A stretch of DNA of 64,000 nt from a virus, in IMG/VR virus record IMGVR_UViG_3300030106_006480, positions 1-64,000 of that record. One strand, written 5' to 3'. Of the stretch, positions 2-34,986 are shown piece by piece (positions within the stretch are counted from its first letter, which is position 1; each line of letters opens with the position of its first letter). The notes under the pieces are model-generated. The model was not told the origin of the DNA. It did no database searches and saw only the letters and a list, made by a program, of their open reading frames with translations. The position numbers were made by a program, and so were the translations under genes.

Positions 2-1921
2 TCTAATTTAGATCGTTTTCCTGTCTTCAGTACAGTTACAGCTGGTGTTTCTCTTCCATATGTTGATGGAGACTTTAAATATAATCCTAGTCAAAATAGA
101 CTAACAATCGCTAATCTTGTAGCAACTCAAAGTGGTAACTTTGGCGGCAATGGTATTGTTTCTAGCGGCAATATTATTTGCGGACCGCAAACAGGTAGCG
201 TAGCTTTAACTCTTAATGATGGTTATGGAAATGCCAATATAGCATTTAACCATACAGCAGGAAAGCCTGATCAAGTTGGTAACGCACTAAGAATTAAAAC
301 CAATGTGGATGGAACTTCAAATCCCACAATGGAATTTCAAGGAGCAGTAGCAAGTTCAGCAGGATCAGCTACTAGTTTAAGTAATTTATTTAGATTAAGA
401 GAAACCGAAGGAGCAGACTTCCCTGGGCACGTAACAGCTAATGCAGGTAACTTTATTATTGGAAGTGATGGTTTTGGAATAACTTGGGATGATAGTGGCG
501 ATGATGCAGCAAGAGTTTATGCTGATCGCTCTTCTACTACATTTAATATTGATTTAAATTCAGTAGGGAGTATGGATATAAATACATTTAAAATCAGAGA
601 GAATAACGGTATGGGTGTCTTTAATGACCTATTAAGTCTCGACGACAATGCTTTAACAGTTACCAAAGTAATTGCACAAGAACTTGAACGTAGTGGAGGT
701 ATTACTATTGATGCTAATGGTGCTGGTGCAGATATAACTCTTAGTGCAGCCGATCATGTCATATTAAACAGTGGTTCAGAAGAAGATGGTGCTATTTACT
801 TTCGAGGAAAAAGCGGAGTAGACAGCTATCGATTTGCTAAATCAGGTCAAACTGCAATTGAAGGATTTTTAAGCTTTGAAAGTTTAAGTGCGGATAGAAC
901 ATTTACTTTTCCGAATACCACTGGAACTGTTGCTCTTACTTCAGATTTATCTAGTTACGCAGAAAAATCGGGGGCAACATTTACAGGCGAATTGCAGATA
1001 AATGCACGTTTAGATGTTGGTGATGGTAGTGATGGAAATCACGAAATTAGAATTTATAAAGGCGATAATAATGTCTCAGATCATATTCAGTTTTATAACG
1101 GAACAACCCGCATGGGTGAAATTGGTTGCGAAGATACTAATTGGCTAAGAATTAATCAGGAAACTGATATAAATATTTTTACCCCGCGTTATATCCGTGC
1201 AGATGGTGGACTCTTTGTAAACGGATTAACTAGAGGTATCAATGGTGATGGTGAATTTCTTGTTGGCCCTGGCTCTAGAACTGATCTAGGTCTTAAATTT
1301 GGAAATGATGAAGACACTGGAATGTATAGAGTCGGTAGTAATAGCCTTGCACTTGTGACAGGCGGAAATGTAAGAACAGTAATAGCAAGTAATGGTAATC
1401 AAAAACATTCTGCAATTGGTAACCCTACAAGAGCACATGAGTTTAAAACTAGTCGAGGTGGTAGTAATAGTTACTTTATTATTTCTGGTTACAATAGTGC
1501 TACCGTCAATGATGCTAGTGGTGGCACTGAAGTATTCCGAGTCCGTTCAAATGGAGGCGTACAAAATACTGCAAATGTTTATACTAGTTTGTCTGATGAA
1601 AGACTTAAAGAAAACATTGTTGATGCTCAGTCTCAATGGGATGATGTAAAAGCATTAAGGCTTGTTAATTTTAATTTTAGAGATGAAGTTGGTTATGGAT
1701 CAGAAAAATTACTTGGTTTTATTGCTCAAGAAGTTGAAGAAATTTGCCCTCAACTTGTCGATAGTGATGACTTAGATGATGAAGAATCGTTTGTCCCTGG
1801 TCAAAAATCAGTTAGGAATAGCATTATCATGACTAAAGCCTTTGGTGCTTTACAAGAAGCAATGACACGCATTGAACAACTAGAAGCACGTATTGCACAG
1901 TTAGAAGGATCCGAACCTTGA
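2..1921 (+). CDS. Tail fibre/spike with C-terminal S74 chaperone domain (5' partial)
   Basis: The frame is open from the first bases of the window, so the N-terminus lies outside; about 639 residues are visible. Most of the protein is Gly/Asn/Thr-rich and beta-like, as in fibre shafts. The last ~110 residues carry the peptidase S74 / intramolecular chaperone signature: SDERLKENI (near base 1591), then LLGFIAQEVEEICPQLV, ending in a coiled coil (IEQLEARIAQLEG). In this family the chaperone trimerises the fibre and cleaves itself off at the Ser of the SDxRLK motif. The role is host adsorption. The endolysin follows directly. Family call is secure; receptor specificity cannot be read. Confidence 0.9.
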   Translation, partial: SNLDRFPVFSTVTAGVSLPYVDGDFKYNPSQNRLTIANLVATQSGNFGGNGIVSSGNIICGPQTGSVALTLNDGYGNANIAFNHTAGKPDQVGNALRIKTNVDGTSNPTMEFQGAVASSAGSATSLSNLFRLRETEGADFPGHVTANAGNFIIGSDGFGITWDDSGDDAARVYADRSSTTFNIDLNSVGSMDINTFKIRENNGMGVFNDLLSLDDNALTVTKVIAQELERSGGITIDANGAGADITLSAADHVILNSGSEEDGAIYFRGKSGVDSYRFAKSGQTAIEGFLSFESLSADRTFTFPNTTGTVALTSDLSSYAEKSGATFTGELQINARLDVGDGSDGNHEIRIYKGDNNVSDHIQFYNGTTRMGEIGCEDTNWLRINQETDINIFTPRYIRADGGLFVNGLTRGINGDGEFLVGPGSRTDLGLKFGNDEDTGMYRVGSNSLALVTGGNVRTVIASNGNQKHSAIGNPTRAHEFKTSRGGSNSYFIISGYNSATVNDASGGTEVFRVRSNGGVQNTANVYTSLSDERLKENIVDAQSQWDDVKALRLVNFNFRDEVGYGSEKLLGFIAQEVEEICPQLVDSDDLDDEESFVPGQKSVRNSIIMTKAFGALQEAMTRIEQLEARIAQLEGSEP

Positions 1922-1976
1922 TTTATTGCACTGATTAAAGTTTTATCCTATATTTAATAAGAATTATTTTTTAGAA

Positions 1977-2153
1977 ATGGCTGTTAAAAAATCTGAATTA
2001 CTTGCTGCAATTCAAACGGGAATTGATGCAAGTAAATCAAATAATAAATATTTAATTGAGTACGCAAGTCAAATTCTTGGAAACACGTTGAATAAAATTG
2101 ATTACGAACCAGAAGCAGAGGTTAAAGAAGAAATCAAAGAAGAGGCTAAGTGA
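1977..2153 (+). CDS. Small helical protein of unknown function (58 aa)
   Basis: ATG at 1977; the protein is MAVKKSELLAAIQTGIDASK onward with a very charged Glu/Lys tail (EAEVKEEIKEEAK). It ends one base before the endolysin start, so the two are probably co-translated. I do not recognise a family. Its place between fibre and endolysin suggests a late transcript. It is a coding call from tight packing and clean start and stop. Confidence 0.65.
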   Translation: MAVKKSELLAAIQTGIDASKSNNKYLIEYASQILGNTLNKIDYEPEAEVKEEIKEEAK

Positions 2154-2154
2154 A

Positions 2155-2853
2155 ATGAAAAGCCAACCAATTAATCTTACAGATGCAGCTTTTTGGTACA
2201 AACAAGAATCGCATCAGGTAGCTGCTTTTAATTACTTACAATCTATATTAAGTGAGGAAGAGCTAGAAAATTTTGCAGAAATTTATAGAGCAGGACCTGT
2301 TATGCCACCAACAAATGGTCCTTTAACTCCTGATGTTTTTGCTGAATTAACAGGATATTCTGCTGATAAATTTACAGAACAAGAATGTCTTGATGCAAAT
2401 CGTCTTTTTCAAGAAACTGATTTTATTAGACATAAAGATGCAATGTGTATGTTACTTGGCAATATTTTGCACGAGACGGGTAACATGCGCTGGCTAAAAG
2501 AATTAGCTTCAGGAGAAGCTTATGAAAATCGCGCCGACCTGGGAAATACACAACCTGGAGATGGACCTAAATACAAAGGAGCCGGAGTTTTACAACTTAC
2601 AGGTAGGTATAACTACTCAATTCTAGCCAAAGATGTTAATGATACCAAGGTAATTGAATACGGTTGTGATTATGTAGCAACAACATATCCTTTCATGTCA
2701 GCCTATTCTTGGATTGAAAACAATAAACTATTACACGTTTGCCTGAAAGAAGGTTTTGATAAATGCTGTTATAGAATTAATGGAGGTTGGAACGGTTACG
2801 AAGACCGCAAAAAGAAATACGAAATCTGTAAAAGAGTATTCAATGTCAAATAA
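2155..2853 (+). CDS. GH19-type endolysin (chitinase-like peptidoglycan hydrolase)
   Basis: 232 aa from ATG at 2155; an upstream TTG would overlap the previous gene and is less likely. The glycoside hydrolase 19 core is visible: NILHETGNM with the catalytic Glu (about residue 104), then GEAYENRADLGNTQPGDG, YKGAGVLQLTGRYNY, and a C-terminal INGGWNGYEDR segment. Phage GH19 enzymes cut the peptidoglycan glycan backbone at lysis. No signal peptide is visible, so a holin or other export route is expected; a small hydrophobic protein lies on the opposite strand at 3010-3156. The ~75-residue N-terminal region (FWYKQESHQVAAFNYLQ) is not a domain I recognise. Confidence 0.85.
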   Translation: MKSQPINLTDAAFWYKQESHQVAAFNYLQSILSEEELENFAEIYRAGPVMPPTNGPLTPDVFAELTGYSADKFTEQECLDANRLFQETDFIRHKDAMCMLLGNILHETGNMRWLKELASGEAYENRADLGNTQPGDGPKYKGAGVLQLTGRYNYSILAKDVNDTKVIEYGCDYVATTYPFMSAYSWIENNKLLHVCLKEGFDKCCYRINGGWNGYEDRKKKYEICKRVFNVK

Positions 2854-3004
2854 AAATAATAATGCAAAACGAGTTAATGTTTGCTGGGAATTAAATGGAG
2901 AAAGATGCTGCAAGACTTTATCAAAAGATGAAGCCTATGCAATTAAAAATAAAATGAAAGAAGAGGATGGAACCATTTTTTGGTTCCAAGCTCTAGATGA
3001 TTAA
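2843..3004 (+). CDS. Small unknown protein (53 aa)
   Basis: ATG at 2843 lies inside the last codons of the endolysin (11-base overlap). The protein has a basic Asn/Lys start (MSNKNNNAKRVNVCWELNG), a Cys pair and a Trp/Phe C-terminus (GTIFWFQALDD). The longer frame from 2756 is mostly shadow of the endolysin, so the internal start is preferred. Function unknown. Confidence 0.6.
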   Translation: MSNKNNNAKRVNVCWELNGERCCKTLSKDEAYAIKNKMKEEDGTIFWFQALDD

Positions 3005-3009
3005 TCCAT

Positions 3010-3156
3010 TTACTTTTTAGTTAATGGCTTGAGTTTTACAAGTGCTTTCAAAACAATCTGAATAATGCTGTTATCTTTTAATGGAGATAAAGCAATAATT
3101 TCAGAAGCAGCAGCAACGACAACCCAAGTAATAGGATTAGCTAAAAGATCATGCAT
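3010..3156 (-). CDS. Small hydrophobic protein, possible holin-like (48 aa)
   Basis: Start ATG is the complement of 3154-3156 and the stop lies at 3010. The sequence begins MHDLLANPITWVVVAAASEI and continues IALSPLKDNSIIQIVLKAL: one clear hydrophobic segment plus an amphipathic tail. From memory, similar LL.NP.TW.VVAAASEIIALSPLKDNS proteins occur in cyanophages. The position back-to-back with the GH19 endolysin suggests lysis, but the opposite strand argues against simple co-transcription, and a single membrane span is short for a classical holin. Confidence 0.65.
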   Translation of the reverse strand: MHDLLANPITWVVVAAASEIIALSPLKDNSIIQIVLKALVKLKPLTKK

Positions 3157-3184
3157 AATTTTTTTACCAAGCTACTTCTTTATT

Positions 3185-3970
3185 CTACCGATCAAAATCT
3201 TGTTGCTCTTCGCTTGGAGTAATTACATCATAAAAACCAGCACCTAAACTTTTTCTTTCATGTAAAGGAACTTCTTCTTTACAAGATGGAGCATAACTTT
3301 TTTGTTCTGTTTTAGTTTCCCAAAAATATTCTTCCGATTCTCCAAGGCGACCCCATTTAGCATTAGGATACTCAACATTAAAGTAACGAGAAGACACTAA
3401 GAAATCAGGAATTTTTAGTTGTTCTGGCGACAAACTAGGGTCAATAACGCGGCACCTGTTATTGGGGTACGCTGCAATTTGACCATTTGACAATGTAACA
3501 ATATTGAACGATTTGTGCTCGTCTGGGGTTTCGGAGAAAGAAAGATCAGCCCTAGAGCGGTCCCCATTAAAGCTGTCAATAGTAAACAAATATTCGCCAG
3601 AGAGAGTCCCGTGTAGTTTTGTTCTGACTTCCCATCCTGCTGTATATGTAAGATTTTTTTCAAGCGTTGTAATGTCATGACTAAAGCAATTCCAGAATTG
3701 TAGTTCTTCTAATGGCAAGTCTGGATCAGGAACATTTGGTGTTTGCGGTGAATCTGAGTCCCACGCAAGAAACGCCGAGATGGGAAGTTTGTCATAGAGT
3801 GCTCCGTAATCTGGTAAAAACGTTTCAAAGTAAAAACACCTACCAGGAAGAGACTTAGCACTGACCCAATAACCAAGTACATATTCCCCGTGCCCATCAC
3901 GTAAATCCCTTAGATACTCTTTGCGGACCCATACCTTTAATGGAGGAACATTGGTAATGAGTGTACTCAC
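3185..3970 (-). CDS. Unknown protein, probably virion-associated (261 aa)
   Basis: Start MSTLITNVPPLKVWVRKEYL. Aromatic and Pro rich, mostly beta predicted by eye (GEYVLGYWVSAKSLPGRCFYF), no membrane segment, acidic C-terminus EEQQDFDR. It heads leftward from the same cluster as the 286-aa protein at 4090. I do not recognise a domain. A structural role is suggested only by composition and neighbours. Confidence 0.75.
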   Translation of the reverse strand: MSTLITNVPPLKVWVRKEYLRDLRDGHGEYVLGYWVSAKSLPGRCFYFETFLPDYGALYDKLPISAFLAWDSDSPQTPNVPDPDLPLEELQFWNCFSHDITTLEKNLTYTAGWEVRTKLHGTLSGEYLFTIDSFNGDRSRADLSFSETPDEHKSFNIVTLSNGQIAAYPNNRCRVIDPSLSPEQLKIPDFLVSSRYFNVEYPNAKWGRLGESEEYFWETKTEQKSYAPSCKEEVPLHERKSLGAGFYDVITPSEEQQDFDR

Positions 3971-25144: not shown

Positions 25145-25252
25145 AGTTGATGAAAAGGAGAATGACTTGTAGAATAAAGGAACGTTCACCTCAATGCGAG
25201 GCGCAATTCATCCGGCCAGGGAACGGGGACCGGAGTATTAGCGGAGGACACC

Positions 25253-27274: not shown

Positions 27275-27363
27275 TGGTGAGAGTGGTGGGACTTGAACCC
27301 ACATAGCCATTACTGACCGACAGATTTTAAGTCTGTTGCGTCTACCAATTCCGCCACACTCTC
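27275..27363 (-). tRNA. tRNA-Leu (UAA anticodon)
   Basis: The minus strand starts GAGAGTG at 27363 and ends CACTCTC at 27279, then A and CCA, so CCA is encoded. A-G box GCGGAATTGGTAGACGC; anticodon stem ACAGA, loop CTTAAAA (anticodon TAA), stem TCTGT; a long variable arm of the type II class; T-arm GTGGGTTCAAGTCCCAC. TTA is a common codon in this AT-rich genome. A family A element lies 5 bases upstream of its 5' end. Confidence 0.95.
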
Positions 27364-27410: not shown

Positions 27411-29210
27411 TTAGGTTAGTTGTTCTTCTCTTTTTATCAACGCAACTTTGAATGCGTCTTCAACATTGGAACGTTCGAGATCACTGAGTCTTTTGTTGCC
27501 AATATCACCGATTTGATTAACAGTCATGACACCATTATTAACAAAGAGTTGAATGGTGTAACGAGGCTGCCCATCAATCATGGTCAGAATGATGAGTTGT
27601 CTCATCTTCTTGATATCATCTGCATAACCATGACCAGCACCAACACAGTTGCGGACGGCTCGACCCCAAGCTGCTAGCTGGTGTGTGTCATAAGGCTGTA
27701 AGAAGCTATACTTAACATCTTCACCGTCATTGCATTGCTCAACTTTGATGGGTTGAGGAAATAGCTTCTGAGGCAAGTTAACGTTAGCGTTGCTGATCTT
27801 CCATGTCTCTGCCATGAGATGATCGTGCCATTCCATTAAACGCCAGCGCTTGGGCTTGATGTTGTCAGTACGATCAGTAGTAATGCATTGGCAAAGCATG
27901 TCATAAGTATCACGCCAATCTGTCATGTAGACATGGCGCTGTCCTGTAGCAGCGTCAGCACTTAGAAGGTAACCTCCGCATTCACTTCTTTGTTGGTCAA
28001 GTTCTGACTGTTGCTTGTACTTTTGATAGAGCATGTTGAGAAATGATTCAACAGGCAAGTTTTCTTGCATCCACTGAAAACCAGTTCTGTTGTGAGAGTT
28101 AATTAGTACTATTTTAGAGAGCCAATCAAACCTGGAATGAAGTAGATTGTGATCAATGTCACGATAAACTTCTTTGATTTCATTGACAGATGATAAGAAC
28201 TGATAAAGAATTCCATAGGGTGGTTTAAGTGCTTCACGATCATACATATTTTGTGCAATATTATTTTCATGAATGACTTTGGTGTCATTCATTGCATTTA
28301 AAACTAAAGATCTAAACCACTTGGCAGATAGTACATCTTGCATGTATTCACAACAGAAATGTTTACGCAATATATGGATAATATTGTCTACATCATGGAC
28401 GTACATGGTCTCACTACCCATCCATCTAGGCCTGGACCAGTACTTTGACATAATATTTTCAAACTTGTTGTTCTCAGGATCAAGCCGAGTAAAGATATCA
28501 TCGCTTGATCCTCCTTTGAATTGAGGAATATCTTTGGCAAGTTGGTTTTCCCATTTTTGAACAGTGCGATAAACAGTCCAGGTCTTACCATAAGACTTGA
28601 GGTGATGCTCACTACGGTTGGGATCTTTCCAGTAGTTACCGGTATAGCCATCCATGATGTCATCTTTAGTCATCAGGATTGTTTTGCGATACCAATAACT
28701 GCGGCCATCTTTGATACGTGGAAGCATCATTGATTCATCATTTTGATTAAACATGCACTTACCAAGTGTGCGACGACTTGGGATGTATACATCAGTACAT
28801 TGTTTACGAGCTGCTGCTGTATCTCGATACGCAATTGTCAAGCCATAGATGTATGAATCATCTTTTGACTGTAAAAGCTTGCTGCCATTCGGAGGCAGCC
28901 ATGCAGCTACCCACAATTGGCGATGATAGTAGACAACAGCAAATGGTTCAGGTTCCTGTCCAAAGACAGGCTTCGTAAATAAGTGAACTTTGTCTGGTGC
29001 TTTCTCTTTGTTGAGCTGTTCTACTGTTTGTTCCCACAAGTTGTCTTTAACGACGTGCTTGGGGAACATGTTTGAAGGACGACCACTGGGAAATGTTTTC
29101 CGCTTGTTCTTGTTACGATTTTCTGTAGCTATAGGGGCTGCAAGTTTCTTACGCGTTTGGTCATAGCCTGCAACTTCAAGTGCAAGCTGGTTAGGAAGAT
29201 TGAAATGCAT
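27411..29210 (-). CDS. PcfJ-like protein (599 aa)
   Basis: The C-terminal ~100 residues match the PcfJ family: AWGRAVRNCVGAGHGYADDI, LIILTMIDGQPRYTIQLFVN and VNQIGDIGNKRLS. Other PcfJ proteins occur in conjugative elements and phages; the biochemical role is unknown. The N-terminal 450 residues are basic/aromatic (KDNLWEQTVEQLNK, QWKFRTVQKWENQL-like) without a known domain. Leader ACACATCACACTACACTAAATC before the ATG has no G. Confidence 0.75.
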   Translation of the reverse strand: MHFNLPNQLALEVAGYDQTRKKLAAPIATENRNKNKRKTFPSGRPSNMFPKHVVKDNLWEQTVEQLNKEKAPDKVHLFTKPVFGQEPEPFAVVYYHRQLWVAAWLPPNGSKLLQSKDDSYIYGLTIAYRDTAAARKQCTDVYIPSRRTLGKCMFNQNDESMMLPRIKDGRSYWYRKTILMTKDDIMDGYTGNYWKDPNRSEHHLKSYGKTWTVYRTVQKWENQLAKDIPQFKGGSSDDIFTRLDPENNKFENIMSKYWSRPRWMGSETMYVHDVDNIIHILRKHFCCEYMQDVLSAKWFRSLVLNAMNDTKVIHENNIAQNMYDREALKPPYGILYQFLSSVNEIKEVYRDIDHNLLHSRFDWLSKIVLINSHNRTGFQWMQENLPVESFLNMLYQKYKQQSELDQQRSECGGYLLSADAATGQRHVYMTDWRDTYDMLCQCITTDRTDNIKPKRWRLMEWHDHLMAETWKISNANVNLPQKLFPQPIKVEQCNDGEDVKYSFLQPYDTHQLAAWGRAVRNCVGAGHGYADDIKKMRQLIILTMIDGQPRYTIQLFVNNGVMTVNQIGDIGNKRLSDLERSNVEDAFKVALIKREEQLT

Positions 29211-33847: not shown

Positions 33848-34051
33848 TCAGTTAGCTAAGTAACGGATATGCATGCAGTGTTTAGCATCACCTACCCATG
33901 AACGCATAGTAACCAAACGATGATAGTCAGGTTGCTTCAGGCATTCCTGGGTAGCAATCTTATTCAGATGTTTCTGCCCTGCTACGCAAAGCAAAGCACC
34001 GATACCAACACCTGCAATGATGGCAGTGATAGGAGTGAGAGGAGAACGCAT
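33848..34051 (-). CDS. Small membrane protein (67 aa)
   Basis: ATG at 34051 (MRSPLTPITAIIAGVGIGAL) after a family C element; the longer frame from 34111 covers the hairpins and is rejected. One N-terminal hydrophobic helix (ITAIIAGVGIGALLCVAG), then a basic/His-rich soluble part (QKHLNKIATQECLKQPDYHR). Confidence 0.6.
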   Translation of the reverse strand: MRSPLTPITAIIAGVGIGALLCVAGQKHLNKIATQECLKQPDYHRLVTMRSWVGDAKHCMHIRYLAN

Positions 34052-34071: not shown

Positions 34072-34138
34072 TGCCACGGGATTGTGGCAATAACTGCCGG
34101 AGGGTTTGCACCTCCGGACCCGCTTTAACGGATCAGTC
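34072..34138 (-). promoter_or_regulatory. Three-way-junction element, family C copy 1
   Basis: Closing stem GACTG (34134-34138) with CAGTT (34092-34096); hairpin ATCCG/CGGGT; hairpin CCGGAGG/CCTCCGG with 7-base loop TGCAAAC; then a separate hairpin GCCAC/GTGGC (34073-34088). It begins at the stop codon of the 70-aa gene. Confidence 0.55.
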
Positions 34139-34345
34139 TTTATCAGAGAAATAACCGACTGCTATGCCAATGGCACCGCAAATCACAAATGTAATGGGAT
34201 GAGTGGTCATAAACTCCCACTGCCAGTGATAGAACATACGCACAGGAGGTAGCGTAAGATACATTGCAAAAGCTAGTAAACAACCAAGGACTGCACCAAC
34301 TAAAGTTGCACCCAAGGTAGACAGCTTTTCAAATGAAGTGAACAT
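34133..34345 (-). CDS. Two-TM membrane protein (70 aa)
   Basis: MFTSFEKLSTLGATLVGAVL. Two hydrophobic helices: LGATLVGAVLGCLLAFAMYL (11-30) and TFVICGAIGIAVGYF (52-66), with a basic/aromatic loop (RMFYHWQWEF). Typical small phage membrane protein. Stop codon is part of the family C closing stem. Confidence 0.65.
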   Translation of the reverse strand: MFTSFEKLSTLGATLVGAVLGCLLAFAMYLTLPPVRMFYHWQWEFMTTHPITFVICGAIGIAVGYFSDKD

Positions 34346-34369
34346 AGTTTAGTGTTTGAAACAATAGAT

Positions 34370-34446
34370 GCCACTTGATTGTGGCAATAGTTGAGTAGGG
34401 GATTCGATCCCCCGGCATCACGCCTGGTCAGATGACCATCTCAACT
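34370..34446 (-). promoter_or_regulatory. Three-way-junction element, family C copy 2
   Basis: Closing stem AGTTGAG/CTCAACT (7 bp, 34440-34446 and 34389-34395), hairpin GGTC/GACC, hairpin GGGGAT/ATCCCC with a T-arm-like loop ATCGAAT, then GCCAC/GTGGC (34370-34385). Overlaps the end of the 34428 gene. Confidence 0.55.
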
Positions 34447-34616
34447 GGAGATTCCATCATCTCCACAAAGGAGAGAACAGATATCTCTGAGTAGCCACAC
34501 TCTTCTGGGTGACCTTCGTAGTTATGTTCGACCGAAAGATCGAACGCAACCGAGTCGGCCTCCTCCTTAGAGAAGTGTGCGCTGTGTTGTTGACCGTTGA
34601 GGATGACGAAGAACAC
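34428..34616 (-). CDS. Unknown protein (~62 aa, start uncertain)
   Basis: The frame reaches 34724, but copy 3 of the family C element occupies 34640-34710, so I put the start at GTG 34616, preceded by CGGAG. VFFVILNGQQHSAHFSKEEA, DSVAFDLSVEHNYEGHPEEC, ending FVEMMESPVEMVI. Small alpha/beta. Longer version possible (98 aa). Confidence 0.45.
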   Translation of the reverse strand: MFFVILNGQQHSAHFSKEEADSVAFDLSVEHNYEGHPEECGYSEISVLSFVEMMESPVEMVI

Positions 34617-34639
34617 GTCAGTCGCTCCGAGTGTGCGGT

Positions 34640-34710
34640 ACCTATCTCCGCTGTAGGTAATAACTGGTGGGGGCATTGCACCCCCACTGGCCGCTTGAAC
34701 GGACTCAGTT
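34640..34710 (-). promoter_or_regulatory. Three-way-junction element, family C copy 3
   Basis: Closing stem AACTG/CAGTT; hairpin CCG/CGG with loop TTCAAG; hairpin GTGGGGG/CCCCCAC with loop TGCAATG; then ACCTA/TAGGT. Shares much primary sequence with copy 1 (CCGTTxAAGCGG, GGTGCAA, CAGTTATT). Confidence 0.55.
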
Positions 34711-34986
34711 GACTTGAGCAACAATAGTTACTGCTCTACCACCAAACTCTGGGCTATTGAACATCTTCATGCCTAACTTTGCGTCAGCCATGAATTCAAT
34801 CAATGCCTTGTAAAGAGCACGGCAGTATTTCATCTGCTCTCGTTGTTGATCAGAATCATTAGCCAATAGCCAAGTCATCTGTCCTTCAGCAACAAGATAA
34901 TCAACTGTTTGCAAGATATCTTCTTGGTCAACCGCTGCGTTAGCGTTGGCTTTCCAATCAAATTTCCAGCTGGTTTGAGTTTGCAT
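34705..34986 (-). CDS. Unknown protein (93 aa)
   Basis: MQTQTSWKFDWKANANAAVD, QEDILQTVDYLVAEGQMTWL, LANDSDQQREQMKYCRALYK. Helical; last 20 residues beta (FGGRAVTIVAQVN). First gene of the leftward block after the origin zone; leader TCACTTCACTTCATC has no G. Confidence 0.65.
   Translation of the reverse strand: MQTQTSWKFDWKANANAAVDQEDILQTVDYLVAEGQMTWLLANDSDQQREQMKYCRALYKALIEFMADAKLGMKMFNSPEFGGRAVTIVAQVN

Follow-up and report, generated by a model that had tools for sequence, protein, structure and literature searches.

A family of short RNA elements, seated on the stop codons of cyanophage genes, very likely folds as tRNA elbows without an anticodon arm. Our preferred reading of the comparative sequence evidence, to which we give a probability of roughly 0.55, is that these elements are cis-acting tRNA mimics which punctuate polycistronic phage mRNA and would be cut, most likely, by the RNase Z of the host.

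The window (the whole 64,000-nucleotide stretch of DNA that was analysed) belongs to an IMG/VR virus record of 74,142 bases and is an S-EIV1-like cyanophage genome, whose terminase shares 80% identity with that of Synechococcus phage S-EIV1. Its three elements are intercistronic, lie on the minus strand within a series of small genes without known family, and each begins on the stop codon of the gene upstream. A search of viral contigs found no close protein relatives of the neighbouring genes, and blastn of the region against phages returned nothing useful.

Fold and comparative support

The features of the region are as follows, in the order of the minus strand:

34705..34986, minus: gene upstream of copy 3, 93 aa, without PHROGs or Pfam match and of no known family; stop UGA (34705-34707) inside copy 3
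34658..34711, minus: class I tRNA-like element, copy 3 (covariance model R1); P1 34710-34706/34666-34662, D-hairpin 34702-34691, T-stem 34687-34681/34673-34667, T-loop UGCAAUG 34680-34674, discriminator A 34661, UU 34660-34659
34635..34658, minus: trailing H-type pseudoknot ACCTACAGCGGAGATAGGTACCGC, after copy 3, stems S1 ACCU/AGGU and S2 GCGG/CCGC (S2 covariation)
34428..34616, minus: gene separating copies 3 and 2, with GTG at 34614-34616 as its likely start; stop UGA (34428-34430) inside copy 2
34389..34446, minus: class II tRNA-like element, copy 2 (fold; class recurs in other phages); 7-bp acceptor-like stem, extra hairpin bearing the UGA stop, short GGC/GCC hairpin, 5-bp T-stem with T-loop AUCGAAU
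34370..34385, minus: trailing hairpin GCCACAATCAAGTGGC behind the class II element (fold)
34133..34345, minus: gene separating copies 2 and 1, a hydrophobic product of 70 aa, without match in a PHROGs search; stop UGA (34133-34135) inside copy 1
34087..34138, minus: class I tRNA-like element, copy 1 (covariance model R1, covariation, fold); P1 34138-34134/34096-34092, D-hairpin 34131-34120, T-stem 34117-34111/34103-34097, T-loop UGCAAAC 34110-34104, discriminator A 34091, UU 34090-34089
34073..34088, minus: trailing hairpin GCCACAATCCCGTGGC, after the UU of copy 1 (fold; same module in many relatives)
33848..34051, minus: gene downstream of copy 1, 67 aa from ATG 34051

The sequence-only reading had placed three structures here, over or near the upstream stop codons, and in this it was right: RNA folding recovers all three on the minus strand, the covariance model recovers copies 1 and 3, and a UGA is overlapped in each case. 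The kinship it saw between copies 1 and 3 also stands, both being matched by the model of one family. Copy 2, described as having the same shape, does possess the 7-bp stem and the T-loop, but it represents a separate sister class whose junction is four-way and whose helix splits 7+5 like that of tRNA, the window copy having one extra pair and one A-A mismatch; it is not matched by the class I model. Closing stems are present throughout, but in copies 1 and 3 the stem has 5 bp and abuts a 7-bp T-stem. The trailing hairpins claimed for all copies follow copies 1 and 2, whereas the module behind copy 3 is an H-type pseudoknot.

Copy 1 folds with a z-score of -3.1, copy 2 with -4.4 (-3.84 for 34389-34446) and copy 3 with -1.4; given the weak value of the last, folding energy alone is no proof, and it is the comparative evidence that proves copy 3. 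The covariance model was built from 54 non-redundant relatives, and because copies 1 and 3 are among them, their matches (34088-34139, 74.6 bits, E 4e-25, and 34658-34711, 51.8 bits, E 1.5e-16) measure fit and not independent discovery; no further significant match exists in the 64 kb. Across the 54-sequence alignment, standard pairs occupy 97.0% of the alignment cells; shuffling lowers this to 74.3%, and sliding the partners to 49% or less. The covariation score reaches 0.608 (0.162 shuffled), and 11 of the 16 pairs show changes on both sides. Covariation thus strongly supports the predicted class I fold. A reading on the plus strand was rejected, as folds are slightly poorer there for two of the three copies and no gene association is found on the opposite strand.

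From 5' to 3', a class I element opens with P1, a 5-bp stem that holds the stop codon or lies next to it. Then come a D-like hairpin (CCG UNAANN CGG in most elements), two to three spacer bases, a 7-bp T-stem with a 7-base T-loop, the 3' strand of P1, A-UU and a second module. P1 and the abutting T-stem together make 12 bp in most elements, as in tRNA, with T-loops of the form UGCAAAY or UUCRANY, while the junction slides across elements between 5+7, 6+6 and 7+5 splits. Weak model matches and a second scan add variants whose T-loops are canonical for tRNA (UUCGAUU, UUCAAUG) and whose D-regions hold GG. An anticodon arm is missing from class I, and class II has at most a 3-bp hairpin.

In the elbow of tRNA, bases 18 and 19 of the D-loop contact bases 55 and 56 of the T-loop. 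Among distinct combinations of D-loop and T-loop in our elements, the 19-56 Watson-Crick pair, formed by the final base of the D-loop with base 56 of the T-loop, is present in 55 of 56 (as G-C, A-U or U-A) against a shuffled mean of 39.9, a level reached by none of 20,000 shuffles, a count which depends on how the elbow is defined (D-loop of 6-8 nt beginning with U, plus two hand-parsed variants). Another, automatic parse of the D-hairpin, in which the stem is mis-set in some rows, gives 63 of 66 against 51.4, likewise never reached. Mutual information reaches 0.64 bits at 19-56 and 0.72 bits at 18-55, with no other loop pair above 0.31; the table being small and the relatives not independent, these elbow values are descriptive, and the argument lies in the repeated compensations. 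On the strength of this covariation the elements very likely fold as tRNA elbows. The tRNA-like outline that had been suspected is therefore strongly supported by the 12-bp acceptor/T helix, the T-loop and the covarying contact between D-loop and T-loop. Departures from tRNA are seen as well: position 55 of the T-loop is mostly G, not U, the class I junction is 5+7 and not 7+5, and G1-C72 is not retained.

Distribution and genomic setting

Copy 1 and the two S-EIV1 copies, without their flanks, supplied a search pattern that matched at least 119 stretches of viral contigs, almost all of which share one architecture. The covariance model gave 158 matches in 80 loci. Fourteen phage records, searched whole, hold one to five copies each, and class II recurs in other phages. 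Absence from relatives that keep the same genes had been named beforehand as evidence against the elements; this is not what is seen, since S-EIV1 retains two copies at the corresponding place. Not all carriers are obviously cyanophages, as viral contig L117 illustrates. A PcfJ-like protein (PF14284) is encoded there at 1652-2797 (-), with a tRNA-like element directly behind its gene, and in the window at 27411-29210 (-), just under the cut-off.

Among 84,980 prokaryotic genomes the strict pattern was found in two contigs only, and at this strictness diverged copies could be missed; a plasmid search gave no match. A contig from a horse-feces MAG (L154) has four copies within 1.7 kb (2020-3749, minus); these have U runs after P1 and so are terminator-like too, and one has a U19-A56 elbow pair. 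A Ktedonobacteraceae MAG has one copy by the strict pattern and a second by the covariance model (L155 1421-1471, minus; L214 about 612-660, plus), the L155 element lying just upstream of an OrfB_IS605/TnpB gene (Pfam).

The element is also present in T7-like cyanophages such as P-SSP7 and S-TIP37, recognised by capsid, psbA and connector genes (PHROGs). It overlaps an annotated stop in S-CBP2; in other T7-like cyanophages it has psbA or a small ORF on one side and the major capsid gene on the other. This slot in front of the capsid gene is occupied by the mimic in P-SSP7, S-TIP37, S-SBP1 and S-RIP1, and by a genuine tRNA-Gly(UCC) in NATL1A-7, where it is directly trailed by the UUGGC module common to the relatives. 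This alternation of tRNA and mimic in one slot, in front of one downstream module, is the strongest hint at a shared processing, with a single phage as the tRNA-bearing case. A third group of phages has, in this slot, a long hairpin with the internal or loop sequence CACCUCAGAGUCGGA. Some T7-like phages thus use a non-tRNA hairpin, and a tRNA shape is not obligatory at this place. The CACCUCAGAGUCGGA hairpin (L194 about 1470-1505; also L198-L203 and L205) is mostly trailed by A-UUGGC, like the tRNA-like elements.

Between the element and the capsid gene, T7-like phages have a promoter-like sequence, which counts against the punctuation reading. In L115 (8722-8700, minus) and relatives it reads GACGGTGGGATAGACCACAA, which we take to resemble the start of the T7 phi10 promoter, GGGAGACCACAA, and which is possibly a promoter of the phage RNA polymerase. 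Several T7-like cyanophages, P-SSP7 included, possess a glutamine-II riboswitch (Rfam, above gathering score) before the small ORF whose stop is overlapped by the element (riboswitches at L208 221-274, L195 194-250, L204 174-227 and L196 1282-1334); in NATL1A-7 one lies further upstream of the tRNA-Gly, and another is found elsewhere in the window (25180-25235, plus).

Two further RNA families were observed nearby. One is an intergenic H-type pseudoknot, GGUC CUGAGUAU GACC UUAAA ... CUCA, at 32838-32800 and 29806-29775 of the window and at about 9538-9500 and 8812-8780 of L004 (all minus), whose two stems seem, by eye, to covary between the window and S-EIV1. The other ends in GUGUAAGUCC(C/U)AG and is closed by CUGGG/CCCAG (window about 32110, 29285 and 27400; L004 about 11480 and 10790; all minus); in many related phages its place is immediately before tRNA-Leu(UAA).

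Stop codons, end signals and possible cuts

Of 182 elements, namely those having upstream sequence, 166 have an ORF of at least 50 codons that ends within -15 to +20 of P1, compared with 15% at random same-strand positions and 27 of 182 when the opposite strand is taken. Most commonly the stop is a UGA within the 5' strand of P1, and for some genes a UAA in the D-loop. As the conserved CUGA always contains UGA, the evidence resides in the open frame and not in the triplet.

At the other end, 160 tail-blind elements have A73 in 137, U74 in 158 and U75 in 159 cases. Information content amounts to 1.89 bits at U74 and 2.0 bits at U75, against at most 0.25 bits per position in the 5' flank, and the first base pair of the helix is not fixed. 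In Bacillus, a uracil at most 2 nt downstream of the discriminator stimulates RNase Z about 200-fold (PMC10100781), and cyanobacteria possess both RNase Z, with a single gene, and RNase P (PMC10989914). A conserved A-UU on the 3' side together with a variable 5' flank favours RNase Z over RNase P.

The modules after A-UU are interchangeable. A module like the trailing hairpin of copy 1 stands behind many class I elements; in others it is an H-type pseudoknot, whose S2 covaries over seven sequence types and is fully paired in 100 of 106 cases (67.7 when shuffled), and one element (in L114) is trailed by an RNA from a different pseudoknot family that these phages possess. Plausible downstream ORFs have their start codons 40-140 nt beyond the elements.

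The sequence-only reading had suggested recruitment of RNase P, RNase Z or an aminoacyl-tRNA enzyme. We infer recruitment of one of the two nucleases; an aminoacyl-tRNA synthetase is unlikely because the elements lack an anticodon arm, an encoded CCA and any conserved acceptor identity. In the mechanism that we favour, the element would refold once the terminating ribosome departs, and a host nuclease of tRNA maturation, most likely RNase Z, would take it for a pre-tRNA. A cut immediately 3' of the discriminator (A73) would leave a compact 3' end on the upstream mRNA, which thereby retains its stop codon, while the downstream mRNA would begin with UU and a hairpin or pseudoknot that may shield its 5' end. 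The benefit would presumably consist in monocistronic mRNAs with protected ends. A cut by RNase P at the 5' end of the helix is conceivable, but the stop codon would then be lost.

Alternatively, RNase P could do the cutting, alone or alongside RNase Z. Its cut would fall at the 5' end of the 12-bp helix, before the stop, and would yield nonstop upstream mRNAs and a freed tRNA-like RNA. The elements possess the determinants by which RNase P measures its substrates, a 12-bp distance from T-loop to helix end and the elbow (PMC11143913); phage RNAs and operon mRNAs are known substrates, and the genuine tRNA-Gly in the pre-capsid slot must be one. This route nevertheless seems unlikely to us, because neither the 5' flank nor the first pair is conserved, the discriminator is not followed by RCC(A), and the cut would remove the stop codon from almost every upstream gene.

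A role as an uncut cap or barrier of 3' ends against exonucleases, apart from any tRNA processing, would agree with stable folds at gene ends and with the plain long hairpin that is the alternative in the T7 slot. We consider it rather improbable, as a barrier could do without the elbow contact, the invariant 12-bp sum and the invariant UU behind the helix. The tight overlap with stop codons, down to the UAA in the D-loop of some genes, and the plausible ORF starts downstream could also point to translation coupling, in which the fold captures the terminating ribosome (e.g. through the elbow-binding L1 stalk) and the next gene is reinitiated; distances and downstream modules vary widely, however, and NATL1A-7 has a true tRNA gene in the place of the element, which makes this quite improbable. 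That the elements are functionless, decayed phage tRNA genes would account for their tRNA-like T-arm and acceptor and for the real tRNA in the slot of one phage, but strong covariation, the existence of dozens of diverged sequences, the multiple copies in a genome and a fixed placement on stop codons indicate selection and leave this reading highly improbable.

If RNase Z does cut these mimics, tRNA punctuation, known from mitochondria, would exist in bacterial viruses too, and enzymes of tRNA maturation would process mRNA during cyanophage infection. Structured spacers around photosynthesis and capsid genes would find an explanation, cyanophages would have an equivalent of T7's RNase III sites, and a portable processing element of 52 nt would be at hand. 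As a tentative proposal, with chances a little short of even, we suggest that DNA phages of cyanobacteria evolved a tRNA punctuation of their own. Anticodon-less mimics, present in several copies and seated on stop codons, would call in the RNase Z of the host to split operon transcripts, and the resulting mRNAs may have CCA-tailed tRNA-like 3' ends and pseudoknot-capped 5' ends.

Relation to known RNAs and processing systems

The comparison with tRNA and Rfam models that had been recommended gave no ARAGORN or Rfam match at the elements. Rfam 15 has no covariance model that matches over them, the C4 family included, and neither ARAGORN nor RF00005 scores them as tRNA; a separate tRNA-Leu (27275-27363) is all that was found. 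A tRNA or tmRNA gene was rejected because ARAGORN finds neither at element sites, and the Rfam tmRNA models gave only sub-threshold matches of 17 nt to the T-arm. A self-cleaving ribozyme was likewise rejected (no hammerhead-type core in the family, no Rfam ribozyme match), as was an intrinsic terminator for cyanophages, in which just UU and then a structured module follow, with no U run. An integron attC-like or other recombination site was considered only, and is disfavoured by the strand-specific placement on stop codons and by covariation of RNA type. What the elements do share with tRNA is the 12-bp acceptor/T helix with a 7-nt T-loop and, by covariation, the 18-55 and 19-56 pairs; with tRNA punctuation and t-elements they share a tRNA-like fold between genes in sense orientation. 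Processing signals of tRNA-like shape are already known; this anticodon-less family on stop codons is absent from Rfam, and no description of it was found in the open-access journal literature searched.

In mitochondrial tRNA punctuation, and in the t-elements of plant mitochondria, tRNAs or tRNA-like folds at mRNA ends are cut by RNase P and RNase Z, and they sometimes overlap stop codons. The phage elements resemble them as tRNA-like folds over stop codons at gene ends of polycistronic transcripts. They differ in that they belong to DNA phages of bacteria, have a minimal fold without anticodon arm, are repeated within one operon and are combined with hairpin or pseudoknot modules; cutting, moreover, is inferred here.

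RNase P cuts bacterial operon mRNAs and phage RNAs, namely the his operon, M3 RNA and C4 antisense RNA (PMC11143913), which like our elements are pre-tRNA-like structures in bacterial or phage transcripts. Unlike these, the cyanophage elements are multi-copy, sit on stop codons and have their signals on the 3' side. With the tRNA-like domain of tmRNA they share acceptor and T-arm and the missing anticodon arm, but they have neither CCA nor tag ORF and lie in cis between genes.

Structured intergenic RNAs of cyanophages are known from the cis-regulatory manA, wcaG and PhotoRC-II (PMC2864571). Together with glutamine-II these resemble our family in location; they are, however, 5'-UTR or riboswitch-like, whereas the tRNA-like family lies on stop codons and has an elbow. 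Finally, the transcript of T7 phage operons is divided at intercistronic RNase III sites, structures that follow stop codons. Those sites are extended double-stranded hairpins, in contrast to the tRNA-shaped elements of cyanophages.
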